Positions 25,799 to 43,583 of a stretch of 64,000 bases of DNA are shown one piece after another. Every line of letters begins with the position of its first letter. The stretch's first letter is position 1. Below the pieces are notes generated by a model. The model searched no databases and was not told the DNA's origin. It saw only the letters and a program-made list of their open reading frames with translations. Made by a program: the position numbers and the translations under genes. The DNA comes from Hymenobacter ruricola (lineage in GTDB: Bacteria > Bacteroidota > Bacteroidia > Cytophagales > Hymenobacteraceae). Location of the stretch: the NCBI RefSeq assembly GCF_015694525.1, contig NZ_JADQDM010000010.1, forward strand, positions 62,001 through 126,000, in the 5' to 3' direction.

Positions 25799-28375
25799 AT
25801 GAAATTTTTTGCTCCGCTGCTCCTGGCACTCCTCTTGGTATTGCCAGCCGCCGCCCAGCGTATCGTAATCAGCGGCCAAGTGGTGGAGGCCACCAACGGC
25901 GAGCCGGTGCCGTTTGCGTCCATCTTCGTACCCAAGACCAATTTCGGCGTCACGGCCGACGCCGACGGCAAGTTCAAGCTGGCCATCACGGGCTCGCCCG
26001 ATTCCATTGCGGCCTCGGCCATGGGCTTTGCCACGCTGCGGCGCAAGCTCAGCGACGCCGCCACGCAAACCGTGCTGTTCCGGCTGAAAACCGGCGGCGT
26101 GGCCCTGGGCGAAGTGGTGGTGTCGTCGCGCCAGCCCGAAAACCCGGCCTTCCGCATCCTGCGCGAAGTGCAGCGCCACAAGCCCGAAAACGAGCGTTCG
26201 GCCCTGCAGGCAGCCGAGTACGACTCCTACAACCGCATCGAAACCAGCCTGATTGACGTGCCCGCCAACCTGGCCAAGCGCAAGGTCATCAAAGACATTC
26301 GGGCGCTGGCCGTGCGCCAGGGCGCCGCCGCCGCTGCCGATGCCGACGCCCCGCTGCCCATTTTCGCGTCCGAAGTGGGCTCGCGGGTGTACCAGCGCAA
26401 CGCGCCGCTGCGCCGCCGCGAGGACCTGCTGCACAAGCAGATGCGCGGCGCCGGCCCGCGCGAGGGCTCCATCCTCTCGCAGATGCTGGGTTCCAACTTC
26501 CAGAACTTCGACTTCTACCCCAACTGGCAGAACGTGCTGGGCAAGGACTTCATCTCCCCCATCGCCGAAGGTGGCCGCCTGACCTACGACTACGAGCTGC
26601 AGGATTCCGTGTTTGTGGGCAAGGACTGGTGCTACAAAATCGCCGTCACGCCCAAGCGCAGCCACGACCTGGCCTTCAAAGGCACCATCTGGATTACGCA
26701 GGAAGGCTACGCGCTGCGCCGCATCGACGTGGTGGCCAGCCCCGACGCCAACATCAACTTCGTGAGCGACCTGCGCATTTACCAAGACTTCACCTCGCCC
26801 GGCGACGGGCCGGGCCTGCCCATCCGCACCAAGCTGGTGCTCAGCGTGCGGCCTTACGAAAAGCAGGCCGCCATGCTGGTGCGCTTTACCACGGTGAGCA
26901 GCAACTTCGTGCGGAACCAGTTGCACACCGAGCCTGGCTTTTACGACCAGCCCATCGTGTCGTCGCTGATGGAGCCCGCCGAGCAGCAGGGCGGTGGCTT
27001 GCTCGCCAGCGTGCCGCAGGGCGGCGCCCGCGGCTACTTCGACGAGCACCGCCCCGACACGCTCAGCCTCTCGGAGCGCCAGACGTTTGCCGTGCTCGAC
27101 TCGGCCAAGCAGCTGCCTTCGGTGCGCAACCTGCTGGACTGGGTCGACTTGTTTGTGAACGGCTACAAGCGCGTGGGCCGCTGGGACGTGGGCCCCATCC
27201 TCACCTCGTATGCGCACAACGACTACGAAGGCAGCCGCATCCGGCTGGGTTTCCGCACCACGCCCGACATCAGCCGCGACTGGGTGACGCAGGGCTACGT
27301 GGCCTACGGCACCAAGGACACCCGCATCAAGTACGGCATCCGAACCTACTACATTGCCGAGCGCCGGCACTGGACGGTGTTCACCGGCGAGTTCAAGCAC
27401 GACGTGGAGCAGGTGGCCCTGCTCGACAACGACTTTACTTCTGATAATAATTTGTTTGCGGCCGCCTCCCGCTGGGGCCGCTTCATTCAGGGCCGGCCCA
27501 TCCTGCGCGATTTGTACTCGCTGAGCGTACAGCGCGACCTGTTTCACGGCTTCACCCAGACCCTGACGGCGCGCCACCAGGACATTTCGCCGCTGCACGA
27601 CTTCGCTTACTACTCCACTTCCGACCGTGGCCCGACGGCGCCCATCGGCCACGACCTAACGCTGTCGGAAGTGGTGCTGGAATCGCGCTACGCCCCCGAC
27701 GAAAACCTGGTGCAAAGCGAAAACCGGCGCCGCGCGGTGGGCCTCAAGCGCCTGCCCGTGTTCACGTTCCGCTACACGTTCGGCTACCGCAACCTGTTCG
27801 AGAAGAACACCCCGCCGCCCTACCAGAAGTTCAACCTGCTCATCACGCACAGCGCCTCGGTGGGCCAGCTGGGCCGCCTGAACTACCGCGTGGAAGGCAG
27901 CTACATTCCGGATGCCGTGCCCTACCTCATCCTCAAAACGCCGCTCGGCAACCAAACGCCGTTCTATAACGCCAACTCCTTCAACCTGATGAACTACTTC
28001 GAGTTCGTGACGGACCACTCGGTGTCGCTGCGCCTCGACCATCATTTTGAAGGGCTCTTTCTAAACGGCATCCCCGGCATTCGTTCGCTCAACTGGCGCC
28101 TGGTGGGCACGGCCAACCTGCTCTACGGCAGCCTGTCGAACGCCAACACCACGCAGCCTCGGCGCGACATGGGCGGCCACGAGCTGGCCCCCATCCCCAC
28201 CCTCGACAAGCAGCCCTACGTGGAAGTGGGCTACGGCATCGAGAACATTTTCAAGTTTATCCGGGTCGATTTCATCCACCGCCTCACCTACCGCGACCAG
28301 CCTGCGCAGGACACGCCCATCACGCCCAAACACCAGAATTTCGGCGTCAAAGTAGGCGCGCAGTTCCGCTTGTAG
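25799..28375 (+). CDS. DUF5686 / carboxypeptidase-regulatory-like outer-membrane protein
   Basis: 858 residues with a signal peptide (FFAPLLLALLLVLPAAAQ). Residues about 22-105 form a CarboxypepD_reg-like beta-sandwich (ISGQVVEATNGEPVPFASI, TADADGKFKL) typical of Bacteroidota outer-membrane proteins. The rest is the DUF5686 region: a mixed domain to about 450, then many amphipathic strands with aromatic ends (RLGFRTTPDISRDW, FRYTFGYRNLF) and a C-terminal strand ending in FGVKVGAQFRL, as in a beta-barrel. It should sit in the outer membrane. The role of the family is not established. A strong terminator follows. Confidence 0.88.
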   Translation: MKFFAPLLLALLLVLPAAAQRIVISGQVVEATNGEPVPFASIFVPKTNFGVTADADGKFKLAITGSPDSIAASAMGFATLRRKLSDAATQTVLFRLKTGGVALGEVVVSSRQPENPAFRILREVQRHKPENERSALQAAEYDSYNRIETSLIDVPANLAKRKVIKDIRALAVRQGAAAAADADAPLPIFASEVGSRVYQRNAPLRRREDLLHKQMRGAGPREGSILSQMLGSNFQNFDFYPNWQNVLGKDFISPIAEGGRLTYDYELQDSVFVGKDWCYKIAVTPKRSHDLAFKGTIWITQEGYALRRIDVVASPDANINFVSDLRIYQDFTSPGDGPGLPIRTKLVLSVRPYEKQAAMLVRFTTVSSNFVRNQLHTEPGFYDQPIVSSLMEPAEQQGGGLLASVPQGGARGYFDEHRPDTLSLSERQTFAVLDSAKQLPSVRNLLDWVDLFVNGYKRVGRWDVGPILTSYAHNDYEGSRIRLGFRTTPDISRDWVTQGYVAYGTKDTRIKYGIRTYYIAERRHWTVFTGEFKHDVEQVALLDNDFTSDNNLFAAASRWGRFIQGRPILRDLYSLSVQRDLFHGFTQTLTARHQDISPLHDFAYYSTSDRGPTAPIGHDLTLSEVVLESRYAPDENLVQSENRRRAVGLKRLPVFTFRYTFGYRNLFEKNTPPPYQKFNLLITHSASVGQLGRLNYRVEGSYIPDAVPYLILKTPLGNQTPFYNANSFNLMNYFEFVTDHSVSLRLDHHFEGLFLNGIPGIRSLNWRLVGTANLLYGSLSNANTTQPRRDMGGHELAPIPTLDKQPYVEVGYGIENIFKFIRVDFIHRLTYRDQPAQDTPITPKHQNFGVKVGAQFRL

Positions 28376-28445: not shown

Positions 28446-30488
28446 ATGCAACAATCACGCACTACCCATTCGCTTTCGGGCCAATGCGGCGAGGTTGGGA
28501 AAGGGTGGCGGCGGCTCTTGGCGGGCTTCGGCTTCCTGTTGATGGCATTCGTGGGAAGCAGTTTTCCGGCGCACGCCGCCCCCGAAGACACCCTCGTCGT
28601 CAACCCCGCCCAGTCGGCCATCTACCTCGACGAAAATTATTACAGCTTGCTGGAAGACCCCACGGGCCGGCTCAGCTTCGCCGAAGTGCACAGCCCGGCC
28701 TGGAGCCGGCGCTTCGAGCGGCTGCGCGGCTCGGGGCACCCGTCCAACATCAACCGCACCCAAAGCGCCTACTGGCTGCGCATCACCGTGCGCCACGCAC
28801 TCAACGAGACGGCCGCTTGGTACCTGGAGCTTTACGACTCGCACATTGGCCAGGCCGTGTTTTTCCGCCCCCGCCCTGGCGCCGCCGCAGGCTACGACAG
28901 CGTGGTGACGGGGGCCAGCCTCTCGTTTGCCACGCGCCCGCACCCTTATAAAAACTTCCTGTTTGACCTGCCGCCCCGACCGGGCCAGACGGCCACCTAC
29001 TACCTGCGCCTGCACTCCGACACCCGCACCAGCTTCCGGGCCATGCTGCACAGCGGGCCGGGACTGATTCCGGAGCTGTCGGTGCAGTACTGGTTGCTGG
29101 GCGTGTTCTATGGCGTGCTGGCCATCATGCTGCTTTACAACCTGATACTGTTCTTTTTTCTAAAAGAACAGACCTATTTATTCTACGTGCTCTACGTGCT
29201 GAGCGGCACGCTGCTGTTTCTGACGGAAGACGGGCTGGGGTTTCAGTACCTGTGGCCCGGTGGGCCGGGGCTCAACCATTTCATCGGCGCGGCGGCTCCG
29301 GTGCTGCTGCTCATCACGTTTGCAGTGTACGCCAGCGGCTTTCTCGACATGGCCTCTCGCCTGCCCACCTTGTACCGCGTGGGGCGCTGGGTGGTGGGCC
29401 TGAGCACCACGCTGCTGGTGCTCGACGCGGCCCTGATTCATTCGGGGTTTAGCTTCTGGCTGTACCTGCTGCCGTATGGGCTGCTGTATTACTCGGCTTT
29501 CCGGGCGTACCGGAGCGGGCTGCGGCCGGCCCGCTACCTGCTGCTGGCCCAGGCGCTGGTGGCCACCAGCCTGGTTTTCCTCATCATGCGCAAGCTGGGC
29601 ATTAATTTCTACAACAATGCCTACACCGTTTATAGCCTCTATGCTGCCTTCGTGGCCGAGGTGGTCATCCTGAGCTACGCGCTGGGCGAAAAGCTCAAAG
29701 GCCTGATGGACACCACCCTGCTCACCCAGCACCGCCTGCTGAAGCAGCTCCGCAAAAAGCACCAGGCCCAGGACCGCCTGGTGGAGCAAATGCGTGAAAA
29801 CCAGGAGCTAAAGGACCGCCTCAACTCCGAGCTGGAAGCCCTCGTGACCCAGCGCACCGCCGAGCTGCGCCGCCAAAACGACACCGTGGCCGCCCAAAAC
29901 CGTGAGTTGCTGGAAGCCAACGGCCTGCTGGCCCTGCAATCGGCGGCCATCGAGAACCTGAACGCCGAGCTTAGCCGCGACCTGCACGCCGAAAAGGCTG
30001 CCCGCATCGAAGCCCGCGAGGTAGACTTCGGCGAGTTCAGCCAGATTTACCCGGACAAGGATGCCTGCCTGCGCTACCTCGCCGACCTGAAATGGGGCCA
30101 CAGCAGCTACCGCTGCCGCAAATGCGGCCACGAGAAAAGCTGCGAAGCCCGCGAACCCCACGCCCGCCGCTGTACCCGCTGCCGCTACGTGGAGTCGGCC
30201 ACAGCCGGTACGCTGCTGCAGAAGTGCAAGTTTTCTATTGTGAAGGCCTTGTATGCCGTGTTTCTGCTGCACGCGCACAGAGGCAATTACTCGGCTTCGG
30301 AACTGGCCCGAGTGCTGGAGTTGCGCCAAGCCACCAGTTGGGCATTTGCGCAAAAGGTGCTGGCGGCCTTGCAGCGCCGCCGCCAGGCCGCCGACTACGA
30401 AGACGGCGAACCGTGGACGCACGTGCTGCTGGACGCTACCACCGAACCGGAACTGGCCGAAGAAGCCTCGGTGGATAGCGAGAAATAG
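28446..30488 (+). CDS. 7TMR-DISM receptor fused to IS1595-type transposase DNA-binding region
   Basis: 680 residues from the ATG at 28446. A signal sequence ends in FPAHA (about 44). Residues about 50-200 match the 7TMR-DISMED2 ectodomain (a jelly-roll thought to bind carbohydrate), with TQSAYWLRITVRHAL and YYLRLHS. Residues about 208-415 are seven membrane helices (7TMR-DISM), then a long coiled coil (about 425-530). Instead of a kinase comes the N-terminal part of an IS1595 transposase: FSQIYPDKDACLRYLADLKWG, a zinc ribbon with C557-x2-C560 and C576-x2-C579, then SATAGTLLQ and a helical segment with SASELARVLELRQATSWAF (about 585-650). The DDE catalytic domain is absent; an acidic tail ends the chain. 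The frame is continuous. Expected role: membrane-held, ligand-sensing DNA-binding regulator (inference). A glucan locus lies directly downstream. Confidence 0.9.
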   Translation: MQQSRTTHSLSGQCGEVGKGWRRLLAGFGFLLMAFVGSSFPAHAAPEDTLVVNPAQSAIYLDENYYSLLEDPTGRLSFAEVHSPAWSRRFERLRGSGHPSNINRTQSAYWLRITVRHALNETAAWYLELYDSHIGQAVFFRPRPGAAAGYDSVVTGASLSFATRPHPYKNFLFDLPPRPGQTATYYLRLHSDTRTSFRAMLHSGPGLIPELSVQYWLLGVFYGVLAIMLLYNLILFFFLKEQTYLFYVLYVLSGTLLFLTEDGLGFQYLWPGGPGLNHFIGAAAPVLLLITFAVYASGFLDMASRLPTLYRVGRWVVGLSTTLLVLDAALIHSGFSFWLYLLPYGLLYYSAFRAYRSGLRPARYLLLAQALVATSLVFLIMRKLGINFYNNAYTVYSLYAAFVAEVVILSYALGEKLKGLMDTTLLTQHRLLKQLRKKHQAQDRLVEQMRENQELKDRLNSELEALVTQRTAELRRQNDTVAAQNRELLEANGLLALQSAAIENLNAELSRDLHAEKAARIEAREVDFGEFSQIYPDKDACLRYLADLKWGHSSYRCRKCGHEKSCEAREPHARRCTRCRYVESATAGTLLQKCKFSIVKALYAVFLLHAHRGNYSASELARVLELRQATSWAFAQKVLAALQRRRQAADYEDGEPWTHVLLDATTEPELAEEASVDSEK

Positions 30489-30903
30489 CCAGGCATTTGC
30501 CCGGCAACGATTGCGACGAGGCGGTTTACCCTGATTGGGCACTGGCAACTCGTGCAGACAAATAATCTGTCGGAGTACGGGCGCAGGTAGCTGAAGAGTA
30601 ATTTTTTTCTGATTGCAAGCGTTTTTTTTCGTTGTTTTTTAGACCAAGAACCAATTCCACGAAAAGGCGCTGCCCGATGCGGCAAGCCCTAAAGCCTGTT
30701 GTGTGTGTGTGCAGCAAGCGTATAAGCATTAGGTGGGGCAAACGCAAAAACAGCCAAAACAGCCAATAGACGCAGTTTTCGTTCTTGCATTTGCCAAACA
30801 CGCCCTTATACATTTGAGCGTCCTATCCCACCTGACGCTCGTGTTTTTTACCGCTGCCACCTTCTTTTTGAAAGTGCCTGCCCGTGCCCCACTGCCGGCG
30901 TTT
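30489..30903. other. Control region between receptor fusion and GH3 gene
   Basis: 415 bases, AT-rich for this genome, with T-runs at about 30600-30640 and a (GT)n stretch near 30700. It holds a clear -7 element TACATTTG at 30809-30816. The GH3 frame is open from 30733 but has no protein-like features before the ATG at 30904. No other gene seen. It is the natural place for the operator of the glucan locus. Confidence 0.6.
30809..30816 (+). promoter_or_regulatory. Candidate -7 element (TACATTTG) of the glucan locus
   Basis: Exact match to TANNTTTG, with TTG at 30785-30787, 21 bases upstream. It would start transcription near 30822 and leave a leader of about 80 bases before the GH3 ATG at 30904. 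Confidence 0.6.
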
Positions 30904-33300
30904 ATGCGCCGTCACCGCTGGCCCGCGCACCTGCTGACCATGGCGCTGTGCCTCGGGTGTCAGCGGGCGGCGGTGCCTACCGTTGCAGTGGCTCCAGCAG
31001 TCTCAGCGAGCGCGCCGGTGGCAGCCAACCGGCCCGAAACTACTTTCAGCCCGCGGGTGCAGCAACTGCTGGCTCAGATGACGCTGGAGGAGAAAATCGG
31101 GCAGATGACCCAGCTCAACATTTCGGCCATCAACACCACGGGCGAAGACAAGGACGTGGTGTTGGACTCAGCCAAGGCAACTGCTTTGGTACGGGACTTT
31201 CACGTCGGCTCGTTCATCAACGGTCAGGCAGTGCCGGCCGCGCAGTGGCTGCGCTACGTGGCCGCGCTCCAGCGCATTGCCCTGCGCGAGTCGCGGCTGC
31301 ACGTGCCCATCATCTACGGCATCGACCACATGCATGGGGCCAGCTACGTAAGTGGCACCACCATTTTCCCGCACAATCTCAACCTGGGTGCCACCTTCAA
31401 CCCCGAGCTGGCCCGCCAAACCGCCCGCGCCACCGTGCTGGAATCGGCGGACTTGGGCCACCGCTGGCAGTTCTCGCCGGTGCTGGACCTGGGCGTGAAC
31501 ACCTACTGGCCGCGGCTCTACGAAACCTACGGCGAAGACCCGCTGGTAGCGGCTACGCTGGGCGCGGCTTACGTGCGGGAGCTGCAGTCTAATAACGACA
31601 TAGCCCCTTACAAAGTAGCGGCTTGCGCCAAGCACTTTCTTGGGTACTCAGACCCGCGCAACGGGTGGGACCGCACCAACGCCCTCATTCCCGACCAGCG
31701 CTTGCAGGAGTTCTTTCGTCCTTCGTTCCAAGCCGCAATCGATTCCGGGGTGAAGAGCGTGATGGTAAATTCCGGCGAAATTAACGGGGAAGCCGTGCAC
31801 GCGTCGAAGGCCATTCTCACCGACTTGCTGCGCCGCCAGATGGGCTTCCGGGGTGTGGTGGTGACGGATTGGGAGGACATCAACCGCATGGCGCGTGTGC
31901 AGAAAGTGGCCGCCAACGAAAAGGAAGCCACCTGGATGGCCATCGACGCCGGCATCGACGTGGCCATGACGCCCTACAACACCAACTTCTGCCGCTACGC
32001 CAAAGAGCTGGTGCAGGAGGGCCGCCTAAGCGAGGAGCGCATCACGCTTTCGGCGGGCCGGATGTTGCAGATGAAGGATGAAATTGGCCTCTTTGAAACC
32101 CCGCTGCCGCGCGCCGACCGGCTGGCCCGCGTGGGCGACCCGGCCCTGCGCGCCCAGGCCGTGGCGGCGGCTCGCGAGTCGCTGGTGTTGCTGAAAAACG
32201 AGAAGAACGTGCTGCCGCTGGCTCCGGCCCTCGTGAAGCGCCTGTTGGTACTCGGGCCCTCGGCCGAGTCGCGGGCCAACCTGTGTGGCGGCTGGACGCT
32301 GGCCTGGCAGGGCCGCGCTGAAGAAGCGTACCCTAAAGACGTGCCCACGCTGGTGGAAGCCCTGCGGAAGGAGTACCCCCACGCCATTATTGAAACGCTG
32401 CCCGGCCGCGACTCTAAAGGCAAGTCCTTGCTGGCCAGCGCGGGAGCCGCCGCGAAGCGGGCCGATGCCGTGGTGCTGGCCCTGGGCGAGCGGCCGTATA
32501 CCGAAGTGCTGGGTAATACCTCGGACCTGACCCTGCCCGACGACCAGCAGCAGCTGGCGCGCGCGGCGCAGGCCAGCGGCAAGCCCACGGTGCTGGTCGT
32601 CATCGGCGGCCGGCCGAGCATTGTGCGGGCGGTGGCGGGCGCCAGTTCGGCCGTTATCTGGGCGGGACTGCCGGGCTACGGCGGGGGCACGGCGCTGGCC
32701 GAAGTCATCAGCGGCAAAACCAATCCGAGCGGCAAGCTGCCGTTTACTTACCCGCAATTTGCCGGCCACGTCACCAACTACCACCACGACGCCAACGAGA
32801 ACAGCGCCGACCTGCGCGACTTCGCGGCCGGCTTTGCCCCGGCTGGGGCCAAGTATACAAGCAACATGCTCACCGAGTTTGGCGAAGGCCTGAGCTACAC
32901 TTCCTACCGCTACTCGGGGCTGACGTTGAGCGACTCGGTACTCACTGGAACCGGCGCCAAGCTGCGCGCCACCGTGCAGGTGGCCAACACCGGCGCCCGC
33001 GCCGGGCAGGAAGCGGCCCTGTGGTTTCTGACCGACGAGGTGGGTCGGATTGCGCGGCCGGTGCGCCTGCTCAAGCACTTCGAGAAGCAGCCCTACGCCG
33101 CCGGGCAAAGCCGGAAACTGACCTTCGACATCGACCCGCTGCGCGACCTGAGCTACCCCGACGGCCAGGGCCGGCCGCAGCTCGAAGACGGCTGGTACAC
33201 GCTGCGGGTGGGTACGGAGCAGGCGCGGTTCCGCTACGCGGGCGGCGCCAGTGCCCACAGTGTTCCCGCTCCGGCCAAAACTACTGGCTCAACGAACTAA
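30904..33300 (+). CDS. GH3 beta-glucosidase, lipoprotein
   Basis: 798 residues from the ATG at 30904, which gives a lipoprotein signal (LLTMALCLGC). A GH3 N-terminal barrel runs from about 40, with MTLEEKIGQMTQ, IIYGIDHMHGA, KHFLGYSDP and the nucleophile Asp322 in VVTDWEDI. The C-terminal alpha/beta sandwich has PLAPALVKRLLVLGP and WAGLPGYGGG; a fibronectin-III-like domain closes the chain. It would be anchored outside the inner membrane and cut glucose from beta-gluco-oligosaccharides. First gene of the locus, followed by susC after 83 bases. Upstream frame to 30733 is rejected on the promoter position. Confidence 0.93.
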   Translation: MRRHRWPAHLLTMALCLGCQRAAVPTVAVAPAVSASAPVAANRPETTFSPRVQQLLAQMTLEEKIGQMTQLNISAINTTGEDKDVVLDSAKATALVRDFHVGSFINGQAVPAAQWLRYVAALQRIALRESRLHVPIIYGIDHMHGASYVSGTTIFPHNLNLGATFNPELARQTARATVLESADLGHRWQFSPVLDLGVNTYWPRLYETYGEDPLVAATLGAAYVRELQSNNDIAPYKVAACAKHFLGYSDPRNGWDRTNALIPDQRLQEFFRPSFQAAIDSGVKSVMVNSGEINGEAVHASKAILTDLLRRQMGFRGVVVTDWEDINRMARVQKVAANEKEATWMAIDAGIDVAMTPYNTNFCRYAKELVQEGRLSEERITLSAGRMLQMKDEIGLFETPLPRADRLARVGDPALRAQAVAAARESLVLLKNEKNVLPLAPALVKRLLVLGPSAESRANLCGGWTLAWQGRAEEAYPKDVPTLVEALRKEYPHAIIETLPGRDSKGKSLLASAGAAAKRADAVVLALGERPYTEVLGNTSDLTLPDDQQQLARAAQASGKPTVLVVIGGRPSIVRAVAGASSAVIWAGLPGYGGGTALAEVISGKTNPSGKLPFTYPQFAGHVTNYHHDANENSADLRDFAAGFAPAGAKYTSNMLTEFGEGLSYTSYRYSGLTLSDSVLTGTGAKLRATVQVANTGARAGQEAALWFLTDEVGRIARPVRLLKHFEKQPYAAGQSRKLTFDIDPLRDLSYPDGQGRPQLEDGWYTLRVGTEQARFRYAGGASAHSVPAPAKTTGSTN

Positions 33301-33383
33301 TTTAATTAATCTGATTTGCGGTGCCTTGCTGGTACCGGTGCTACAGCTTTTCATTTTTTCCCACCCACTTCACAATTCTCATT

Positions 33384-36300
33384 ATGAAGCGACTTGTTTA
33401 CTTAAATACGCTGCTCCACCGTTCGGCGGTGGTGTTGGCATGCGGGCTTCCGGTGCTGGCGCACAGTGCGCCGGTGGCGGCAGCGCACCCGCTGGTTCGG
33501 CCGGCGGCCGAGGTGCCCGTGAGCGGGCGCGTGACCGGGCCCGACGGGACTGGCCTGCCCGGCGTGACGGTGCTCGTGCGGGGCACCTCCGTGGGCACCA
33601 GCACCAACGCCGATGGTGCCTTCAGCCTGACAGCACCCGAGGGTAGCACGCTGGTGTTCAGCTTTATAGGCTACACCACCCAAACCGTGGTGGTGACGGC
33701 TGCCAACGCCAGCGCCGTGAGCGTGAGCCTGAAAGAAGATGCCCAGAAGCTGAATGAAGTGGTGGTGGTGGGGTACGGCACCCAGGAGCGGGGCAGTGTG
33801 ACGGGCGCCATTTCGTCGGTGGGCTCGGCCGACATCGTGCGCCAGCCCGTGCCCGACGTGACCCAGGCCATTCAGGGCAAGGTTTCCGGCGTCACCATCA
33901 CCTCCAACGGCGGGGCGCCCGGCGGGGCGGCGGGCACGGCCATTCGGGTGCGCGGCATCACGTCGGCCGGCAATAACAACCCGCTCTTCGTGGTCGACGG
34001 CTTTCCGCTGCCCGACAATGGCGACAGCCAGCTGAACGCCATCAGTCCCAACGACATCGAAACGATTGACATCCTGAAAGACGCTTCGGCCACCGCCATC
34101 TACGGCGTGCGCGCGGCCAACGGGGTGGTTATCATCACGACCAAGCGGGGCAAAGCCGGCAAAACCAACGTCAACGTCGATGCTTACCGGGGCGTGCAGA
34201 TTCTGGCGCGCAAGCTGGACTTGCTCAACGCCAAAGAGTACGCCACCATCAACAACGAGTCGCTCATTGCCGCCGGCAAGCCCATTGCGCTCGACAAGCT
34301 GCGCGACCCAAATTCGCTGGGTGAAGGCACCGACTGGCAGGACCTGCTGTTCCGCCAGGCCAAGATTCAGAACTACTCGCTCTCGACCACGGGCGGCAGC
34401 GAGAAGGCCCGCTACGCGCTGTCGGGCACCTACTTCCAGCAGGACGGCATCATCGTAGGCACCAATTTCGAGCGCTTTACGCTGCGGGCCAACGGCGACG
34501 TGCAGATTGGCAAAATGCTAAAAATCGGCAATAGCATCTCGCTCACGCACCTGGGCGACCGGCAGGTGTCGAGCAACGGCGGCGGCAACGGCGGCAACAA
34601 CGAATACGGCGCCGTGCAGCAGCTGCTGCGCATTCCACCCACGGTGCAGGCCTACCGCCCCGACGGCTACTGGTACCAGCCCAACGGCGCGGCCGACAAC
34701 TTCACGGAAGAAAACCCGCTGGCCACTTCGCTGCGCACCAACCAGAAGTTCACCCGCAACCGCGCCATCACCACGTTCTACGCCGAGCTGGAGCCGCTGA
34801 AAGGCTTGCGCTTCCGCACCAACGTGGGCGTTGACATGATTTACGACAACTTCAACAGCTTCTCGCCCAAGGGCCCCGAACTGGCCGGCTACACGCAACG
34901 CTACACCACGGCCGGCGCCTCAGCCACGTCGAGCTACGCGCCGACTTACCTGATTGAGAACACGGCCACCTACGACCGCACGTTCGGCGGCGACAAGCAC
35001 CACGTCACGTTCCTGGTGGGCCAGTCGGCGCAGGAGTTTAACTTCAGCAACATCTCGGCCAACCGGACGCAGTACCTGCGCAACGACCTGCAGACCATCA
35101 ACTCGGGCCCCATCAACCCGCTGCTCAGCAACGGGGGGACCGTGGACCCGCCCCGGCGCCTGGCCAGCTACTTCAGCCGCCTGAACTACGAGTTTGCCGG
35201 CAAGTACATCGTCCAGGCCACGTTGCGCTACGACGGGTCGTCGCGCTTCCAGCCGGGCAACAAGTTCGGCTTCTTCCCCGGCGGCTCGGTGGGCTGGCGC
35301 ATTTCGGAGGAGGAATTCCTGAAAGGCAACCGCACCGTCAGCAACCTGAAGCTGCGCGCCGGCTACGGTCGGGTGGGCAACGAGTTGAACGCCGGTCGCT
35401 TCGCCTATTTGTATTCCATCAACTTTGGCATCAACTACCCGTTTGGCTCAGACGGGGCCCTCAACACGGGCGGGGCACCCACGCGCCTGCCCAACCCCAA
35501 CCTGCGCTGGGAATACAACGACCAGGCCAACATCGGGCTGGACATGGGCTTTATGGACAACCGGTTTGAAGCCAGCATCGACCTCTACAACCGCAACTCG
35601 CCCAACCTGATTGCGGGCGTGCCGCCGTCCTTGGTGTCGGGCACTTACGAGTCGGTGAACGCCAACGCCGCTTCGGCTTACAACCGCGGCATCGACCTCT
35701 CGCTGACCTCGCACAACTTCACCGGGGGGGCCGATGGCGCGCTGAACTGGTCGACCACGCTGAACTTCTCGGCCTTCAAAACCCGCCTGGAGTCGCTGGG
35801 CGCCGGCATCCCCTACAACGGCCTGACGTCGCTGAGCGGCACCATTGTGCGCTACGACGTCAACCAGGCCTTTGGCTCCTTCTACGGTTACGTGGCCGAC
35901 GGCCTGATTCAAAGCCAGGAAGAGCTGAACGGCCTGAACGCGGCAGCCAAAGCCGGCTCGGCCAAGGCCGACTTTTACCAGCTCAGCGGCACCGGCCCCG
36001 GCGACATCAAGTTCAAGGACCTGAACGGCGACGGCACCATCACCGACAAGGACCGCACGTTCATCGGCAATCCGAACCCCGACTTTTCGTTCGGCATGAC
36101 CAACACGGCCAGCTACAAAAACTTTGACCTGAGCTTCTTCATCCAGGGCGTGCGCGGCAACGACGTGTACAACCTCAACCGCTACATCACGGAAAGCGCG
36201 CTGTATAGCACCACCAACGGCACTACCCGCATCCTGGGCCGCTGGACCGGCCCGGGCACGAGCAACGACATTCCGCGCGCCATCAACGGCGACCCGAACA

Positions 36301-36560
36301 GCAACCTGCGCGTGTCGACCCACTACATCGAGGACGGCTCCTACGTGCGCCTCAAGAACCTGACGCTGGGCTACTCGCTGCCCCGCGCCGTGCTGAGCCG
36401 CATTTCGGCCGCTCAGATTCGCGTGTACTTCACGGCCCAAAACCTGATAACGCTCACCAAGTACACCGGCTTCGACCCGGAGGTGAGCGCCAGCGGCGTC
36501 GACCTGGGCATTTACCCCCAAACCCGCGTTTTCCTCGGCGGCTTGAACATCGGGTTCTAA
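33384..36560 (+). CDS. SusC-like TonB-dependent outer-membrane transporter
   Basis: 1058 residues from the ATG at 33384 with a signal region ending near AHS/AAA. Residues about 45-125: carboxypeptidase-regulatory-like domain (SGRVTGPDGTGLPGVTVL, FIGYTTQTV). Then the TonB box region and plug (LNEVVVVGYGTQERGSVTGA, VRGITSAGNNNPLFVVDG, DASATAIYGVRAANGV), then a 22-strand barrel to the end (RVFLGGLNIGF). It imports oligosaccharides captured by the SusD partner, encoded next. The SusC-SusD-PKD-GH16 order points to a beta-glucan such as laminarin. Confidence 0.95.
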   Translation: MKRLVYLNTLLHRSAVVLACGLPVLAHSAPVAAAHPLVRPAAEVPVSGRVTGPDGTGLPGVTVLVRGTSVGTSTNADGAFSLTAPEGSTLVFSFIGYTTQTVVVTAANASAVSVSLKEDAQKLNEVVVVGYGTQERGSVTGAISSVGSADIVRQPVPDVTQAIQGKVSGVTITSNGGAPGGAAGTAIRVRGITSAGNNNPLFVVDGFPLPDNGDSQLNAISPNDIETIDILKDASATAIYGVRAANGVVIITTKRGKAGKTNVNVDAYRGVQILARKLDLLNAKEYATINNESLIAAGKPIALDKLRDPNSLGEGTDWQDLLFRQAKIQNYSLSTTGGSEKARYALSGTYFQQDGIIVGTNFERFTLRANGDVQIGKMLKIGNSISLTHLGDRQVSSNGGGNGGNNEYGAVQQLLRIPPTVQAYRPDGYWYQPNGAADNFTEENPLATSLRTNQKFTRNRAITTFYAELEPLKGLRFRTNVGVDMIYDNFNSFSPKGPELAGYTQRYTTAGASATSSYAPTYLIENTATYDRTFGGDKHHVTFLVGQSAQEFNFSNISANRTQYLRNDLQTINSGPINPLLSNGGTVDPPRRLASYFSRLNYEFAGKYIVQATLRYDGSSRFQPGNKFGFFPGGSVGWRISEEEFLKGNRTVSNLKLRAGYGRVGNELNAGRFAYLYSINFGINYPFGSDGALNTGGAPTRLPNPNLRWEYNDQANIGLDMGFMDNRFEASIDLYNRNSPNLIAGVPPSLVSGTYESVNANAASAYNRGIDLSLTSHNFTGGADGALNWSTTLNFSAFKTRLESLGAGIPYNGLTSLSGTIVRYDVNQAFGSFYGYVADGLIQSQEELNGLNAAAKAGSAKADFYQLSGTGPGDIKFKDLNGDGTITDKDRTFIGNPNPDFSFGMTNTASYKNFDLSFFIQGVRGNDVYNLNRYITESALYSTTNGTTRILGRWTGPGTSNDIPRAINGDPNSNLRVSTHYIEDGSYVRLKNLTLGYSLPRAVLSRISAAQIRVYFTAQNLITLTKYTGFDPEVSASGVDLGIYPQTRVFLGGLNIGF

Positions 36561-36587: not shown

Positions 36588-38123
36588 ATGACCATCTCAA
36601 AATTTACCTGCGGCACTTTCCTGCTTTCCCTGGGCCTGCTGCTGGGCGGCTGCGGCGAGAAGTTTCTGGAAGAAGCCCCCGTTGACCAGATTACGGACGC
36701 CAACTTTTATCAAAGCCAGCAAGACGCCATCCAGGCCACCAACGCCGCCTACAGCGAGTTGACCAAGGAAGGCCAGTACAACCTATCCATGTGGGCCTTC
36801 GACATCTGGGCCGACAACTCCGTGTCGGGTGGCGACGACGGCAACGACGCCGTGGAGTACAAGCAGCTGGAATCCTTCAGCATTCCGAGCACCAACATCG
36901 TGGCCACCCGCCTCTGGGGCGGCTGCTTCGTGGGTCTGCAGCGGGCCAACTTGGTGCTGCAGAAAGTGCCCGGCATTGCCAACATGGACCCCGCCATCAA
37001 GAACCGCTGCCTGGGCGAAGCCCAGTTCCTGCGGGCCAAGTTCTACTTCGACCTGGTGCGGGCCTACGGCGACGTGCCCCTGTTCACGGCCCCGCCGGCC
37101 AGCCCGGAAGCGGTGAACATTCCGCGTACCCCCGCCGCGCAGGTGTACGCCCAAATCGAAAAAGACCTGGCCGACGCCTACAACAACCTGCCGCCTTCCT
37201 ACTCGGGCGCCGACCTGGGCCGCGCCACCAAGTGGGCCGCCGCTGGCCTGCTGGCCAAAGTGTACATCACCGAAGGCAAGAAAGCCGACGCCGCCACCTG
37301 GGCCCGCCGGGTCATCACGAGCTCGGGCAAGACGATGTGGGACAACTACGCCGACAACTTCAAGCCAGCCAACGAGAATCGCAACGACAAAGAGTCGCTG
37401 TTTGAGGTGCAGTATGTGAACGGCCACAACGAGTACGACCGCAACAACGTGGGCTCGGCCATGAACGAGTTCTTCGCCCCCCGCGGCTCGAACCAAACGG
37501 CCGGCAGCGGCTACGGCTTCAATGTGCCGGAGCCCGACTTCGTGAACGGCTACGAGGCCGGCGACACGCGCAAGGCGGCCACCATCTGGGTGCCCGGCGA
37601 CGTGTACCCCGACGGCAACCGGCAGTCGGCGCGGGCCACGGGCTCGCCCTTCGGCTACAACGTGAAGAAGTGGTTTACGGGCAAGGTGAACACCAACATC
37701 TGGGACTCGCCGCTGAACGTGCCCGTGCTGCGCCTGGCCGAGATGTACCTGATTGTGGCCGAGGCCGTGGGCCCGACCGCCGAAGGCCTGGAAGCCATCA
37801 ACAAAGTGCGGCGCCGCGCCTTTGGCCTGCCCATCGACGTGGCTTCCCCCGCGCACGATTTGACGGCCGCCACAACCGACTTCACGGGCGCTGTGCTGCG
37901 CGAACGCAAGTACGAGCTGGCGTTTGAGTTCGACCGCTGGTTTGACCTGAAGCGCTACAACGGCACGCCTTACGGCCTCATTCCGGTGATGACGGCCCAG
38001 GCCGCCTACCTGCGCACGCTGGGCATTCAGCGTGCCGTGCCCACGGCCACCAACCTGGTGCTGCCCATTCCGCAGTCGGAACTGGACGCCAACCCCGGCC
38101 TGGTACAGAACCCCGGCTACTAA
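36588..38123 (+). CDS. SusD/RagB-like glycan-binding lipoprotein
   Basis: 511 residues. Lipobox in LGLLLGGC, then FLEEAPVDQITDANFYQS, the classic SusD N-terminus. TPR-like helices follow (FLRAKFYFDLVRAYGDVPLF, AQVYAQIEKDLADAYNNLP; cores FYFDLVRAYGDVPL and DLADAYNNLP), and near the end RERKYELAFEFDRWFDLKRY and LPIPQSELDANPGLVQNPGY, as usual. It sits on the cell surface over the SusC barrel and binds the glycan. 27 bases after susC. Confidence 0.95.
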   Translation: MTISKFTCGTFLLSLGLLLGGCGEKFLEEAPVDQITDANFYQSQQDAIQATNAAYSELTKEGQYNLSMWAFDIWADNSVSGGDDGNDAVEYKQLESFSIPSTNIVATRLWGGCFVGLQRANLVLQKVPGIANMDPAIKNRCLGEAQFLRAKFYFDLVRAYGDVPLFTAPPASPEAVNIPRTPAAQVYAQIEKDLADAYNNLPPSYSGADLGRATKWAAAGLLAKVYITEGKKADAATWARRVITSSGKTMWDNYADNFKPANENRNDKESLFEVQYVNGHNEYDRNNVGSAMNEFFAPRGSNQTAGSGYGFNVPEPDFVNGYEAGDTRKAATIWVPGDVYPDGNRQSARATGSPFGYNVKKWFTGKVNTNIWDSPLNVPVLRLAEMYLIVAEAVGPTAEGLEAINKVRRRAFGLPIDVASPAHDLTAATTDFTGAVLRERKYELAFEFDRWFDLKRYNGTPYGLIPVMTAQAAYLRTLGIQRAVPTATNLVLPIPQSELDANPGLVQNPGY

Positions 38124-38159: not shown

Positions 38160-38990
38160 ATGAATACTATCTGGAACAAGGCCGGGATGCTGCTGCTCGG
38201 CGGCACGCTGCTGCTAAGCGCCTGCAAAAAGGGCGACGAAGGCGCCCTGGATGGCCCCGTGCCCACCACCACCTTCACCACCACCTCCCGCACGGTGGGC
38301 TTTACCACCGAAGTCACCTTCACGGCCGTGCCCAACCCCGACGCTTTCCTGTACGAATGGGAGTTTGGCGACGGCGGCGGCACCGACGGCCGCGGCTCGG
38401 TGGCCTCGGGCCAAACCGTGACGCACGTCTACACCAAAGGCGGCACCTTCAAGGCGCAGCTGATTACGGCCGGCCGCGGCGGCCAGGGCTTCTCCGCCAC
38501 CAAGGACATCGTGATTCCCTCGTCGCTCAACCTGGTGAAGCAGTACCTCACCGGCGGCTCGTCGCGCACCTGGAAGCTGGACAACGGCGTGGTGGCTCCC
38601 ATCACGGTGGGCCCCTCCGACGCCGACCCCACCAGCTACTACGCCGGCAACCCCACGCCCGGTGCCCTGCCGGCCTGCCAGGCCGACGACGAGTACACTT
38701 TCAGCACCAACGACGTGTTTACCTACGACGCCAAAGGGCAGACTTTCGTGGCGGGCGGCGCCTGCGATGCCCCCCGCAACGTGACCACGCCGTTCACCTT
38801 TGCCGCGGCCACAGGCCAGGGCCTGGCCCAATTCACGTTGGCCAGCGCCACGCCCTCGCCGTTCATTGGTGTCACCGACGCGCCGGGCTTGCGCTACCGC
38901 ATCCTATCCATCACCAACACCAACATGGTGCTCCGGGCCGGTAGCACGGCCGATAACTTGGTGTTCGACCTGAAACTGGTGGTGAAGTAG
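38160..38990 (+). CDS. PKD-domain lipoprotein (surface glycan-binding candidate)
   Basis: 276 residues. A lipobox is in LLLSAC. Residues about 35-115 form a PKD domain: VTFTAVPNPDAFLYEWEFGDGG, then GQTVTHVYTKGGTFKAQLI (cores YEWEFGDGG and VTHVYTKGGT). The second half is a beta-rich domain with SSRTWKLDN. Position after susD and before GH16 genes is where SusE/F-type or other surface glycan-binding proteins lie, and laminarin loci of other Bacteroidota often encode a PKD protein here. Function in binding is inferred. Confidence 0.85.
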   Translation: MNTIWNKAGMLLLGGTLLLSACKKGDEGALDGPVPTTTFTTTSRTVGFTTEVTFTAVPNPDAFLYEWEFGDGGGTDGRGSVASGQTVTHVYTKGGTFKAQLITAGRGGQGFSATKDIVIPSSLNLVKQYLTGGSSRTWKLDNGVVAPITVGPSDADPTSYYAGNPTPGALPACQADDEYTFSTNDVFTYDAKGQTFVAGGACDAPRNVTTPFTFAAATGQGLAQFTLASATPSPFIGVTDAPGLRYRILSITNTNMVLRAGSTADNLVFDLKLVVK

Positions 38991-39036: not shown

Positions 39037-39909
39037 ATGTCTTTTTCCCAACGTCCTTCTTTTTTCAGGCCGTGGGCCGGGGCCAGCTTGCTGCTGGCCC
39101 TGAGCCTGGGCGGCTGCACCAAAGAATCTCCCAAAGTGCTTCCGCCCGCTGACCCGGTGGTGCCCGTGGCCAACGAAGAACAGCGCGACTACAGCCAGTA
39201 CACCGACCTGGTGTGGAGCGACGAGTTCGACGGCGCTACCCTGGACCCCGCCAAGTGGACCTACGACCTGGGCGGCGGCGGCTGGGGCAACAACGAGCTC
39301 GAAACCTACACCAACTCGCCCGACAACGTGTTCCTCAGCGGGGGCAACCTCGTCATCAAGGCCATTCGCACGCAGGCGGGCAGCAACACCAGCTACACCT
39401 CGGGCCGCATCCTGACCAAAGGGCGCCAGAGCTTCACGTTTGGGCGTTTCGACGTGCGGGCCAAGCCCCCCAAGGGCAAGGGCATCTGGCCGGCCATCTG
39501 GATGCTGGGCGCCGACATTGACCAGAACAACTGGCCGGTGTGCGGCGAAATCGACATCATGGAGGAGCGCGGCAGCCGGCCCCGCGAGCTGCTCTCGACC
39601 ATGCACTTCGGCAGCAGCGGTGCCGACCACCGCTACAAAGGCACTACGGAAAACCTGCCCGCCGACCTTTCCGACGACTTCCACCTGTTTTCGGTGGTGC
39701 GCAGCCGCAACCTGATGCGCTTCTACATCGACGGCCGCCAGTACTACTCGTTCACGAGCAGCGACGCCAACCCCTACCCTTTCAACAACCCGTTTTTCGG
39801 CATCCTCAACGTGGCCGTGGGCGGCAACTTCGACGGCAACCCCGACGCCACCACCACCTTCCCGCAGCAAATGCAAGTGGATTACGTGCGGTTTTACCAG
39901 TACAAATAA
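39037..39909 (+). CDS. GH16 endo-beta-glucanase, lipoprotein
   Basis: 290 residues with lipobox LSLGGC. Jelly-roll GH16: LVWSDEFDGATLDPAKW at the start of the domain, WGNNELETYT, GRFDVRAKPPKGKGIWPAIW. The catalytic motif is GEIDIMEERG with Glu171 (nucleophile), Asp173 and Glu176 (acid/base). The missing loop residue pattern (EIDIME, with Met) is the laminarinase/lichenase type. It would cut beta-1,3 or mixed-linkage glucan on the cell surface. A GC-rich hairpin (39908-39929) starts at its stop codon. Confidence 0.93.
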   Translation: MSFSQRPSFFRPWAGASLLLALSLGGCTKESPKVLPPADPVVPVANEEQRDYSQYTDLVWSDEFDGATLDPAKWTYDLGGGGWGNNELETYTNSPDNVFLSGGNLVIKAIRTQAGSNTSYTSGRILTKGRQSFTFGRFDVRAKPPKGKGIWPAIWMLGADIDQNNWPVCGEIDIMEERGSRPRELLSTMHFGSSGADHRYKGTTENLPADLSDDFHLFSVVRSRNLMRFYIDGRQYYSFTSSDANPYPFNNPFFGILNVAVGGNFDGNPDATTTFPQQMQVDYVRFYQYK

Positions 39910-40084: not shown

Positions 40085-40903
40085 ATGATTTCCTTTCTCT
40101 TTGCCGGGCTCCTGCTGCTGCATTCGAGCGGCACGCCCCCGACCTCGCCCCCGTCCAAGCCGCGCTACACCTTCAGCAAGCTGACGTGGAGCGACGAGTT
40201 CAACTACACCGGCCTGCCCGACTCCACGAAGTGGAAATACGACGTGGGCGGCAGCGGCTGGGGCAATAAGGAGGAACAATACTACACCAAAGCCCGCCGC
40301 GAAAACGCCCGCGTGGAAGGCGGTAACCTCGTAGTGGAGGCCCGCAAGGAAGCCCTGATGCCCGCCAACCCCTACACCTCGGCGCGGCTGCTCTCGCGCG
40401 GCAGCCAAGCCTACGGCCGCTTCGAGATACGGGCCAAAATCCCGGCCGGGCGCGGCACCTGGCCCGCCATCTGGATGCTGCCCGACGTGAACGGCTACGG
40501 CAACCACAGCTGGCCCGACAACGGCGAAATCGACATCATGGAGCACGTGGGCTACGACCCCAACGTGATACACGCCACCACGCACTGCAAGGCCTACTAC
40601 TTCCGCATCAACAACCAAAAAAGCGGCACCACCAAATTGCCCGACGCCACTACGGCCTTCCACGTCTACGCCATTGAGTGGACGCCGGAAACCATTACGG
40701 CCGACATCGATGGCGAACTATACTTCGCGGCCCGCAACGAGCGCACCGGCTGGGAAGCCTGGCCCTGGGACAAGCCCTTCCACCTGCTGCTGAACGTGGC
40801 CGTGGGCGGCGAGTGGGGCGGCCAGAAAGGCATCGACGAAGCCGCGTTTCCGCAGCAGATGCTGGTGGACTACGTGCGGTTTTACGCCATGAAAAAAGGC
40901 TGA
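40085..40903 (+). CDS. GH16 endo-beta-glucanase, second paralog
   Basis: 272 residues. The N-terminus is short and hydrophobic (MISFLFAGLLLLHSSG), a Sec signal without a lipobox, so it may be periplasmic or secreted rather than lipid-anchored as its paralog. GH16 features: LTWSDEFNYTGLPDSTKW, YGRFEIRAKIPAGRGTWPAIW, then GEIDIMEHVG with Glu148, Asp150, Glu153. The C-terminus QQMLVDYVRFY is shared with the first GH16. A second endo-enzyme with a different location is common in laminarin loci. Confidence 0.93.
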   Translation: MISFLFAGLLLLHSSGTPPTSPPSKPRYTFSKLTWSDEFNYTGLPDSTKWKYDVGGSGWGNKEEQYYTKARRENARVEGGNLVVEARKEALMPANPYTSARLLSRGSQAYGRFEIRAKIPAGRGTWPAIWMLPDVNGYGNHSWPDNGEIDIMEHVGYDPNVIHATTHCKAYYFRINNQKSGTTKLPDATTAFHVYAIEWTPETITADIDGELYFAARNERTGWEAWPWDKPFHLLLNVAVGGEWGGQKGIDEAAFPQQMLVDYVRFYAMKKG

Positions 40904-40961: not shown

Positions 40962-41060
40962 GGCTACTAAATTTTCCACCCCCCCCTTACACCGCCCGGA
41001 ATGGTGAGACTCCGGCCGGTGCTGCCGATGCCGGCGCCAGTGGCTGCCGGCGTCATCTTG

Positions 41061-41119
41061 AAGGAACGGGCCCCGGAGTGCCAGTTGGTGAGCCGGCCCG
41101 CGGCGGGCCCGTTCCTTTT
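41061..41119 (+). terminator. Terminator-like hairpin ahead of the second GH3 gene
   Basis: AAGGAACGGGCCC (41061-41073) pairs without mismatch with GGGCCCGTTCCTT (41105-41117), followed by TT then TGCGG. It ends 44 bases before the GH3 start and 158 after the GH16 stop. It could end the upstream transcript or act as an attenuator for the GH3 gene. Confidence 0.65.
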
Positions 41120-41162
41120 GCGGCATTGCGCCGCTTCCTTCCCTCCGACTTTCCGTTTTACT

Positions 41163-43583
41163 ATGAAAAAACCCGTTTCCCTTTTCCGGCGCCTGGCCCT
41201 GGGGGCCGCTTTCGCGGTGGCCGCCAGCCCGGCCGCCACCGCCCAGCGCCTGGGCCTGGAGCCCCGCGTCGACTCGCTGCTCAAAGCCATGAGCACCGAG
41301 GAAAAGCTGGCCCAGCTGACCAAAAACAGCTTCATGACCACGCCCGACAATGCCCGGCTCAAGATTCCGGGCTTCGTGATGGACGACGGCCCCCACGGCG
41401 TGCGCTTCCAGAAAGCCACGGCCTGGCCCACCGGCATGGGCATGGTCTCGACCTGGCACCGCGGGCTGGCCGAGCAGGTGGGCCAGGCCATGGGCGAGGA
41501 ATTCTGGGCCTTTGGCAAGCAGCAGCAGTTGGGGCCGTGCATCGATTTGGCGCAGGACCCGCGCGGCGGCCGCAGTGCCGAAAGCGGCGGCGAAGACCCC
41601 TACCTGATTGGCCAGCTGCAGTCGCGCGTGGCCAAGGGCATCCAAAAAACGCCCGTGATGGCCACCGTGAAGCACTTCATGATTGAAGGCAAGCAGTCCA
41701 CGCGCCACTCGCGCAACGAGCTGTTCACCGACCGCGGCGTGATGGAGCACTACGGCTACAACTTCCGCACGGTGGTGCAGGAGGGCGCCGTGCTCAGCGT
41801 GATGTCGGCCTACAACCTCATCAACGGCGAGCACGCGGCCGAAAGCCCGTACCTGCTGAACACGGTGCTGCGCGAGCGCTGGGGCTTCCCGTTCTACGTG
41901 GTGTCGGACTGGGACGCGGTGCACGACACGAAAAAGGCCATCCTGGCCGGCAACGACGTGTGCATGGGCTCCGACGACTACCTCAAGGACCTACCCGGAC
42001 TGGTGGCCAGCGGCGCCGTGCCGATGACGGCCATCGACGCGGCCGTGCGCAACGTGCTGCGCACGAAAATCATGGCCGGCCTGCTCGATTATTACCCCAA
42101 AGGCAGCAAGGCCGACGCCAACACGCCCGCCCACACCCAGCTCAACCAGCAGGCGGCCCGCGAGTCCATCATTCTGCTCAAGAACTCCGGCAATATTTTG
42201 CCGCTGAAAAAGGCCTCGCTGAAGCGCATTGCCCTCATCGGCCCCAACGCCGACAAGGGCAACTTGAACTGCTACGGCAGCTCCGAAACCAGCCCTCCCT
42301 ACGCCGTGAGCCTGAAACAAGGCCTGGAAACCAAGCTGGGCGTGGCCAAAATTTCCTTCGCCAAAGGCTGCGACATGAACAGCGCCGACACCACCGGCTT
42401 CCGGCTGGCCCGCGAGCTGGCCCGCGGCGCCGATGTGGTGATTTTCGCCGCCGGCCTCGACAGCACCCAGGAAGGCGAAGGCTACAACTCCGGCCACGAC
42501 CGCGCCAATAACTCGGCCACCCTGCCCGGCCAGCAACAGGCCCTCATCAACGCTTTGGCCAAAGCCAACCCCAACCTGGTGGTGGTGGTGCAAAGCGGCG
42601 GCGTGTGCGCCATGCACGAAAGCCTGCCCCGCATGAAAGGCCTCATCTACAGCTTCTACGCGGGCCAGGAAGCCGGCACGGCCCTGGCTGATGTGCTGCT
42701 GGGCGACTACAACCCCGCCGGCCGCATGCCCGTGAGCATGCCCACCGGCGACAGCCAGCTCACCGCCTGGAGCGACGACCTGCGCGATGCCAACGGCGTA
42801 GGCTACCGCATGTATGATAAGAAAGGCACGAAACCGGAGTTTGCCTTTGGCGCGGGCCTGAGCTACACCACTTTCCAATACGGCAACCTGCAGGTGCCCA
42901 AAGCCCCGGTATCGGCCGGCGCCCCCGTCACCATCAGCGTGGACGTAACCAACACCGGCGCCGTGGCCGGCGACGAAGTAGTGCAGCTCTACCTCAGCGA
43001 CAAATCCTCGAAGCTGGACATGCCCGTGAAGCAGCTCAAAGGTTTCGAGCGCATTAACCTGGCGCCGAAGCAGAAGAAAACCGTCACCTTCACGCTCTCG
43101 GCCGAGGACTTTTACTTCTGGAACGAGCAAACCAAGGCCTACGAAGTGCACCCCGGCGCCTACAGTTTCAACGTGGGCAGTGCCTCCGACAAGCTGCCGC
43201 TGGGCGGCGCCTTCACGCTGCAAGCCGCCACGGCCAAGCCCGATTTGAAGGTGACGCAGGTGTTCACGGTGCCGCGCTTCCCCAAGCCCGGCCAGCCCGT
43301 GACCTTTTATGCGATGGTGAAAAACATGGGCACCGCCCCGGTGCCCACCGGCAGCAAGCTCGGCGTCAATTTCACCATCGATAAGGCCGCCGTGGGCAGC
43401 CTGCAGGGCCTGCAGCAGCCGCTGCTGCCCGGCCAGGCCCGCCTGCTGCCCGCCACCACGAACAACTGGAAGCCCACCGCCAGCGGCAACTTCACCGTGG
43501 GCGCCGTGGTGGACGGCAGCAACGCCATCAGCGAGTGGCTGGAAAGCAACAACAGCTTCAGCCGGCCCATTCGGGTGTATTAA
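41163..43583 (+). CDS. GH3 beta-glucosidase with C-terminal CARDB domain
   Basis: 806 residues from the ATG at 41163 (KKPVSLFRRLALGAAF signal, cleavage near ATA). GH3 domain: MSTEEKLAQLTKNS, VMDDGPHGVRF, GGRSAESGGEDPYL, VKHFMIEG and nucleophile Asp249 in VVSDWDAV. The second sandwich has SIILLKNSGNILPLKK and a fibronectin-III-like part (VTISVDVTNTGAVAGDEVVQLYLSD in part: VTNTGAVAGDEVV). The last 110 residues form a CARDB adhesion domain (VFTVPRFPKPGQPVTF, VVDGSNAISEW). It finishes the breakdown of beta-glucan oligomers. The frame is open from 41001, but that start is in front of a terminator hairpin. Confidence 0.92.
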   Translation: MKKPVSLFRRLALGAAFAVAASPAATAQRLGLEPRVDSLLKAMSTEEKLAQLTKNSFMTTPDNARLKIPGFVMDDGPHGVRFQKATAWPTGMGMVSTWHRGLAEQVGQAMGEEFWAFGKQQQLGPCIDLAQDPRGGRSAESGGEDPYLIGQLQSRVAKGIQKTPVMATVKHFMIEGKQSTRHSRNELFTDRGVMEHYGYNFRTVVQEGAVLSVMSAYNLINGEHAAESPYLLNTVLRERWGFPFYVVSDWDAVHDTKKAILAGNDVCMGSDDYLKDLPGLVASGAVPMTAIDAAVRNVLRTKIMAGLLDYYPKGSKADANTPAHTQLNQQAARESIILLKNSGNILPLKKASLKRIALIGPNADKGNLNCYGSSETSPPYAVSLKQGLETKLGVAKISFAKGCDMNSADTTGFRLARELARGADVVIFAAGLDSTQEGEGYNSGHDRANNSATLPGQQQALINALAKANPNLVVVVQSGGVCAMHESLPRMKGLIYSFYAGQEAGTALADVLLGDYNPAGRMPVSMPTGDSQLTAWSDDLRDANGVGYRMYDKKGTKPEFAFGAGLSYTTFQYGNLQVPKAPVSAGAPVTISVDVTNTGAVAGDEVVQLYLSDKSSKLDMPVKQLKGFERINLAPKQKKTVTFTLSAEDFYFWNEQTKAYEVHPGAYSFNVGSASDKLPLGGAFTLQAATAKPDLKVTQVFTVPRFPKPGQPVTFYAMVKNMGTAPVPTGSKLGVNFTIDKAAVGSLQGLQQPLLPGQARLLPATTNNWKPTASGNFTVGAVVDGSNAISEWLESNNSFSRPIRVY

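Follow-up and report, generated by a model that had tools for sequence, protein, structure and literature searches.

A 7TMR-DISM receptor with an IS1595 transposase-type tail beside a predicted beta-glucan locus of Hymenobacter ruricola: a putative membrane-bound one-component regulator

The receptor gene and its glycan-locus neighbourhood

The window analysed here, a stretch of 64,000 nucleotides from Hymenobacter ruricola (contig NZ_JADQDM010000010.1, positions 62,001 to 126,000), holds a gene for a seven-transmembrane receptor, which is followed on the same strand by genes of glycan utilization (Table 1). For the receptor a single unbroken reading frame had been claimed in a first-pass annotation and this was confirmed, as the frame runs intact from its ATG to a TAG stop codon. 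Likewise the DISMED2-type ectodomain and the seven membrane helices proposed there were recovered, with the respective Pfam profiles scoring above their cut-offs (91.9 bits versus 22 for the ectodomain; 126.3 bits versus a curated cut-off of 29 for the membrane domain). The full-length structure model (pLDDT 72) comprises a beta-rich ectodomain and seven long membrane helices, the last of which continues towards the tail as a single helix about 100 residues long (model residues 347-447). DISMED2 domains were predicted to be carbohydrate sensors on the basis of their jelly-roll fold (PMC8846402), and the DISMED2 domain of NicD was reported to bind carbohydrates (PMC8544897).

The C-terminal tail had been assigned to the N-terminal region of IS1595-family transposases. 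The elements underlying this idea, i.e., YPDKDACLRYLADLKWG, SATAGTLLQ, SASELARVLELRQ and the cysteines 557, 560, 576 and 579, locate to the positions first given for them, and the assignment holds by two profiles: the IS1595 zinc ribbon was matched with E 3.9e-5 and 24.0 bits, just below the gathering score of 25.4, and the IS1595 transposase profile transpos_IS1595 was matched with E 1.8e-6 (28 bits versus a cut-off of 75), the match covering only the start of its 215 positions. The homologous tail of another fusion, L140, reaches 26.6 bits with the zinc-ribbon profile and hence exceeds its cut-off. The catalytic DDE domain (PF12762), thought from the outset to be missing, gave no Pfam match in the receptor protein, whose frame stops about 100 residues past the zinc ribbon; histidine kinase, receiver and AraC domains were not found in it by Pfam either. 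Structure prediction, earlier named as a check of the tail, was of help only in part: the long helix leaving TM7 was modelled, whereas the tail itself (AlphaFold, from 49 close orthologues with more distant relatives left out) remained at pLDDT 57, too weak to be informative. With this tail model Foldseek returned no match below E 0.8, and a search by sequence revealed no convincing solved relative. Control of the dimer state by the coiled coil, as initially assumed, remains an inference.

Table 1. Features of the receptor gene, the following intergenic region and the adjacent locus (window coordinates)
Feature	Position	Strand	Basis
Receptor (putative regulator) gene, 680 aa	28446..30488	+	Frame reading, Pfam, NCBIfam, 48 orthologues
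N-terminal signal segment, residues 1-44	28446..28577	+	Hydropathy peak at residues 23-43; exact end inferred
7TMR-DISMED2 ectodomain, residues 64-201	28635..29048	+	Pfam E 4.5e-26; Foldseek match of the fold to the RetS sensor domain (2xbz/3jyb)
7TMR-DISM_7TM, residues 215-415	29088..29690	+	Pfam E 1.9e-36; model with seven long helices
Long helix / coiled coil joining TM7 to the tail, residues 416-526	29691..30023	+	Structure model; mean column identity 0.81
IS1595-type zinc ribbon (Zn_ribbon_IS1595), residues 537-581, Cys 557/560/576/579	30054..30188	+	Pfam PF12760; four Cys shared by all of 26 diverse tails
Helical (HTH-like) segment resembling the start of the IS1595 transposase profile, residues 594-648	30225..30389	+	NCBIfam NF033547, positions 2-57
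Box A, TTGTTTTTTA	30632..30641	+	Present in 46/50 regulatory regions
Box B, TGTGCAGCAAGCGTATA	30708..30724	+	Alignment; core AAGCGTA, from 30716, 83 bp after box A
Predicted Bacteroidota-type promoter, TTG (-33) and TACATTTG (-7, 30809-30816)	30785..30816	+	Conserved in alignment
GH3 protein, lipoprotein-like signal	30904..33300	+	Pfam; first in-frame ATG past predicted promoter
SusC-type TonB-dependent transporter	33384..36560	+	Pfam
SusD	36588..38123	+	Pfam SusD_RagB E 4.7e-37
PKD-domain protein, possibly a surface glycan-binding lipoprotein (role inferred)	38160..38990	+	Pfam
GH16	39037..39909	+	Pfam
GH16	40085..40903	+	Pfam
GH3 with CARDB domain	41001..43583	+	Pfam

In the adjacent locus SusC and SusD lie side by side, meeting the criterion for a polysaccharide utilization locus, and the gene order GH3-SusC-SusD-PKD-GH16-GH16-GH3 has the make-up expected for a beta-1,3-glucan (laminarin-type) locus, the substrate being inferred from the protein families. 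The first GH3 gene was listed among the open reading frames with a GTG start (30733), which sits upstream of the predicted promoter; to judge from the sequence, the ATG given in Table 1, which opens a lipoprotein-like signal, is most likely the true start.

The linkage to SusC is not restricted to this genome. In all of the 50 Hymenobacteraceae loci compared, the downstream genes on the same strand lead to a SusC homologue, about half of these loci having a GH3 gene between receptor and SusC. A wider set of 71 fusion loci, drawn mostly from other families, includes 22 with a SusC gene that starts on the same strand at most 731 bp away, one of them being L140, where SusC/SusD lie directly downstream of the fusion; about two thirds of the 71 are without an adjacent SusC, some of them having a glycoside hydrolase or sugar kinase gene next to them. 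The gene immediately upstream of the receptor gene (25799-28375) encodes a DUF5686/CarboxypepD_reg-like protein, as it does in 18 of the 50 orthologous loci.

Spread, conservation and origin of the tail

The tail was identified in 112 of 200 Hymenobacteraceae genomes and in 101 of the 116 Hymenobacter genomes sampled (counted by hand from the family table of tail matches), within the genus nearly always in frames of about 670-790 residues. A survey for the same fusion elsewhere, suggested at the outset, found the tail in most of the sampled genomes of the genus, and related fusions across the Cytophagales. From other Hymenobacter genomes 48 orthologues (55-91% identity) were aligned end to end. 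Their best-conserved parts are the coil, the zinc ribbon and the HTH region, with mean column identities of 0.81, 0.89 and 0.84 as compared to 0.67 for the ectodomain and 0.77 for the 7TM domain, and in five pairs the tail yielded dN/dS values of 0.015-0.041, i.e., strong purifying selection. As the 48 orthologues carry the same fusion, it is not an assembly join, and the sequencing error joining two genes that had been named as a possible refutation is excluded. More generally, the reading as an artefact of assembly or annotation, or as a dead fusion, can be regarded as refuted already: nothing was found in its favour, whereas the fusion recurs in these 48 loci and in many other families and its tail is constrained (dN/dS at most 0.041).

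An order-wide search revealed matches in 45 of 115 Cytophagales genera with up to 14 per genome, a count which takes in transposases, recognisable by their frames of about 300 residues; long-frame fusions were also found beyond the Cytophagales, in some other Bacteroidia families. Nearly all of the 71 fusion genes that were read match the 7TM profile. Two of them (L140 and L146) were identified by Pfam as sensors of the Reg_prop/Y_Y_Y type, with which a third fusion of equal length groups in the tree; this sensor type is the usual one in hybrid two-component regulators. In L140 (3006-6209) and L146 (3375-6407) the Reg_prop/Y_Y_Y sensor ends in the IS1595-type tail.

A tree was built from 102 sequences, comprising tails and transposase N-terminal regions (134 columns, midpoint root); in it all 78 fusion tails locate to one side of a branch with support of 99/96, beside IS1595 transposases, and the Reg_prop tails are placed among the 7TM tails. 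Under the midpoint root, which is not proven to be the true one, the fusion tails are nested among the IS1595 transposases. Descent of the tail from an IS1595 transposase is most likely. Since the tails form a single clade in which Reg_prop tails reside among 7TM tails, the tree fits one old domestication with subsequent exchange of the sensor. The initial idea that a transposase DNA-binding part was domesticated as receptor output is supported by this single clade, which represents an old and widespread fusion.

The homology to IS1595 transposases would also be in line with a receptor that controls IS1595 transposition, e.g., as a membrane-held competitor for the transposon ends. However, no IS1595 DDE domain was found in the receptor's own genome, for which reason it cannot well be a transposition regulator there, and its conserved neighbours are glycan genes, so that this function is regarded as very improbable.

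The two-box element and its distal copies

The gap between receptor and GH3 gene contains a conserved element, which consists of box A (TTGTTTTTTA), box B (GTGTGC-N-(G)TAAGYGTA) and a predicted Bacteroidota-type promoter composed of TTG and TAnnTTTG. The motif TGTTTTTTA was present in 18 of 20 diverse intergenic regions, while in shuffled sequences even the most frequent 9-mer did not exceed 3 or 4 of 20. Across the Hymenobacteraceae regions box B follows box A by about 82-87 bp, mostly 83-85 bp, and box A precedes the -7 box by 175-179 bp where the latter was found, whereas the whole gap to the gene ranges from 194 to 1022 bp. Three sites with box spacings of 75, 75 and 95 bp fit one helical turn off the main 82-87 bp, but 75 bp is at the same time the edge of the pattern used for the genome scan, rendering the evidence for phasing weak.

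In the window the boxes lie 93 and 176 bp ahead of the -7 box. As both boxes are upstream of the predicted promoter, activation is likelier than repression. The sign of the regulation is not fixed by sequence, hence it is conceivable that the same protein acts at the same sites as a repressor, its tail occupying the boxes and blocking transcription when substrate is absent. Boxes at these distances are, however, more usual in activation and the targets are degradative genes, which are normally induced; repression is hence rated as decidedly unlikely.

The two-box element was defined in Hymenobacteraceae only. Within the other families, GCGTATCA was found in 6 of 22 SusC-linked downstream regions, whereas the downstream regions without SusC linkage had it once in 49 and the 71 upstream regions lacked it, which is suggestive of a related element outside the Hymenobacteraceae. 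In L114, L120, L155 and L157, boxes of the CGTATCA/CGTATTA type were seen by eye between receptor and SusC, in two copies about 80-100 bp apart; these may be the equivalent of box B in other families.

Inheritance of the target from the transposon was considered as well and rejected: the ends of two sister elements (AGGATTACCCATTTA and TTGAATTAGGCACTT) are unlike the boxes, and since this holds for the terminal repeats of both transposons, the target is not visibly inherited.

A search with the pattern box A-N66-82-box B identified two sites in the receptor's own genome, one being that described above and the other residing before a GH5 gene on another contig (L243; G000:C2, 66417-66508, minus strand), whose product carries a type IX secretion sorting tail. 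Across 101 Hymenobacter genomes more than 130 hits were obtained as compared to a handful in total for a reversed control pattern. Twenty distal sites were first picked by eye; 19 of them lie ahead of GH16, GH5, GH30 or Tat-type sugar-isomerase genes, and one is unclear. The remaining 40 hits were read without selection, and 37 of these immediately precede a GH16, GH5 or sugar-isomerase gene, so that 56 of 60 distal sites precede carbohydrate genes. The other three of the 40 comprise two inside frames and one without a gene, one of the three belonging to a receptor-less genome. Among 49 of the downstream genes classified with Pfam there were 22 GH16, 14 AP_endonuc_2 (sugar isomerase), nine GH5 and two GH30; nine further GH16-like genes were called by eye.

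Of the 85 genomes with the receptor 75 carry the element, versus 1 of the 14 without it (Fisher p 2e-9), and true distal sites occur in 39 of 85 versus none of 14 (p 7e-4). These counts were made by hand and related genomes were treated as independent, which makes the p values optimistic. In 15 receptor-less genomes the isomerase is missing in 12 and the GH16 protein in 13 at the threshold used; no two-box element was found at the isomerase orthologues of the remaining three, nor at the GH16 orthologue of the receptor-less genome G194. Although a correlation only, this co-occurrence is the best evidence for the receptor, and not another protein, being the one that reads the boxes.

The receptor may nevertheless be tied to the beta-glucan locus while another regulator binds the boxes, with the tail acting by protein contacts; an unlinked hybrid two-component, AraC-type or ECF sigma protein which co-varies with the receptor could serve as such. 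This would be compatible with the boxes being tied to the receptor merely by co-occurrence and adjacency, with a tail model that lacks a confident DNA-binding fold and with boxes unlike the sister-transposon ends. However, a Pfam search revealed no regulator domain in any other gene of the region 28446-43583, distal unlinked sites are missing where the receptor is missing, and the tail is homologous to the transposase N-terminal region and under the strongest constraint. A separate box-binding protein is considered unlikely.

Proposed mode of action and relation to known systems

The reading preferred here, with good though not full confidence, takes the receptor for a membrane-bound one-component protein which activates a beta-glucan regulon. 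Contact of its tail with the boxes, activation and the ligand are inferred, as no binding or expression data exist. According to this proposal the DISMED2 ectodomain would sense a breakdown product of beta-glucan, i.e., a gluco-oligosaccharide, in the periplasm, and the 7TM bundle together with the helix continuing TM7 would relay the change to the cytoplasmic tail. The tail, composed of the IS1595 zinc ribbon and the helical region and having lost the DDE nuclease, is then assumed to occupy both boxes in dimeric or higher oligomeric form, whereby it would turn on the adjacent GH3-SusC-SusD-GH16 genes and the scattered GH16, GH5, GH30 and sugar-isomerase genes. What the sequences by themselves show is the anatomy, its conservation, the common origin of the tails, the linkage to SusC, the existence of a two-box regulon and the fact that this regulon and the receptor occur together. 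The transcription-control function suggested at first sight is supported by the neighbourhood and the conserved cis element, DNA binding by the tail still being an inference.

With somewhat less assurance, it is considered probable that the receptor belongs to a class of glycan-locus regulators widespread in Bacteroidota, in which one membrane-bound protein reaches from sensor to promoter. Its output module would have been domesticated once from an IS1595 transposase, later moved between 7TMR-DISM and Reg_prop/Y_Y_Y sensors, and its target would be a pair of boxes with a constant spacing of about 85 bp.

Bacteroidota are main polysaccharide degraders, whose glycan loci are usually described as controlled by hybrid two-component systems, SusR-type proteins or ECF sigma factors. 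For hemicellulase genes, hybrid two-component, ECF sigma and catabolite-repression control were named in a review (PMC10766802). The hybrid two-component and ECF sigma-anti-sigma systems are likewise local regulators of SusC/SusD loci, and the Reg_prop/Y_Y_Y sensor type is shared in so far as it also bears the IS1595 tail (L140, L146). In contrast to them, the receptor possesses no kinase, receiver, AraC domain or sigma factor, a single polypeptide leading from the sensor to the proposed DNA contact. With the 7TMR-DISM receptors RetS, LadS and NicD it shares the DISMED2 ectodomain, of a fold like that of RetS, and the 7TM domain; those receptors, however, end in a kinase, receiver or GGDEF domain, where a transposase-derived putative DNA-binding region is found here. 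A precedent for a 7TM receptor with DNA-binding output is given by the ChiS-family DNA-binding domain, which is reported to occur with several kinds of sensor, 7TMR-DISM among them (PMC8092284), but this domain differs from the IS1595 tail. IS1595 transposases have the zinc ribbon and the following helical region in common with the fusion tails, which branch beside them, the differences being the fusion to a receptor, the absence of the DDE nuclease and boxes that do not look like the ends of either sister transposon. A literature search, which covered few subscription journals and preprints, revealed no account of receptors with an IS1595 tail; new here is the receptor's link to a SusC-type glycan locus and to a two-box element. 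If the proposal holds true, it would add a further regulator class for glycan loci with a predicted site and regulon, provide a clear example from bacteria in which the DNA-binding region of a transposase has become the output of a receptor family, and help in understanding how a protein tethered to the membrane locates promoters not linked to its gene.

Beyond the locus, the window encodes further proteins which were described by eye. A protein of 1108 residues (43796-47122) comprises a transporter-like membrane part, repeats and seemingly a cyclic-nucleotide-binding domain, a combination that appeared unusual. It is followed by a receiver-plus-cyclase-like protein (47288-48373), near which three adjacent histidine-kinase-like genes reside on the minus strand (48925-54997); their kinase ends are very similar and two of them possess TPR-like fronts.
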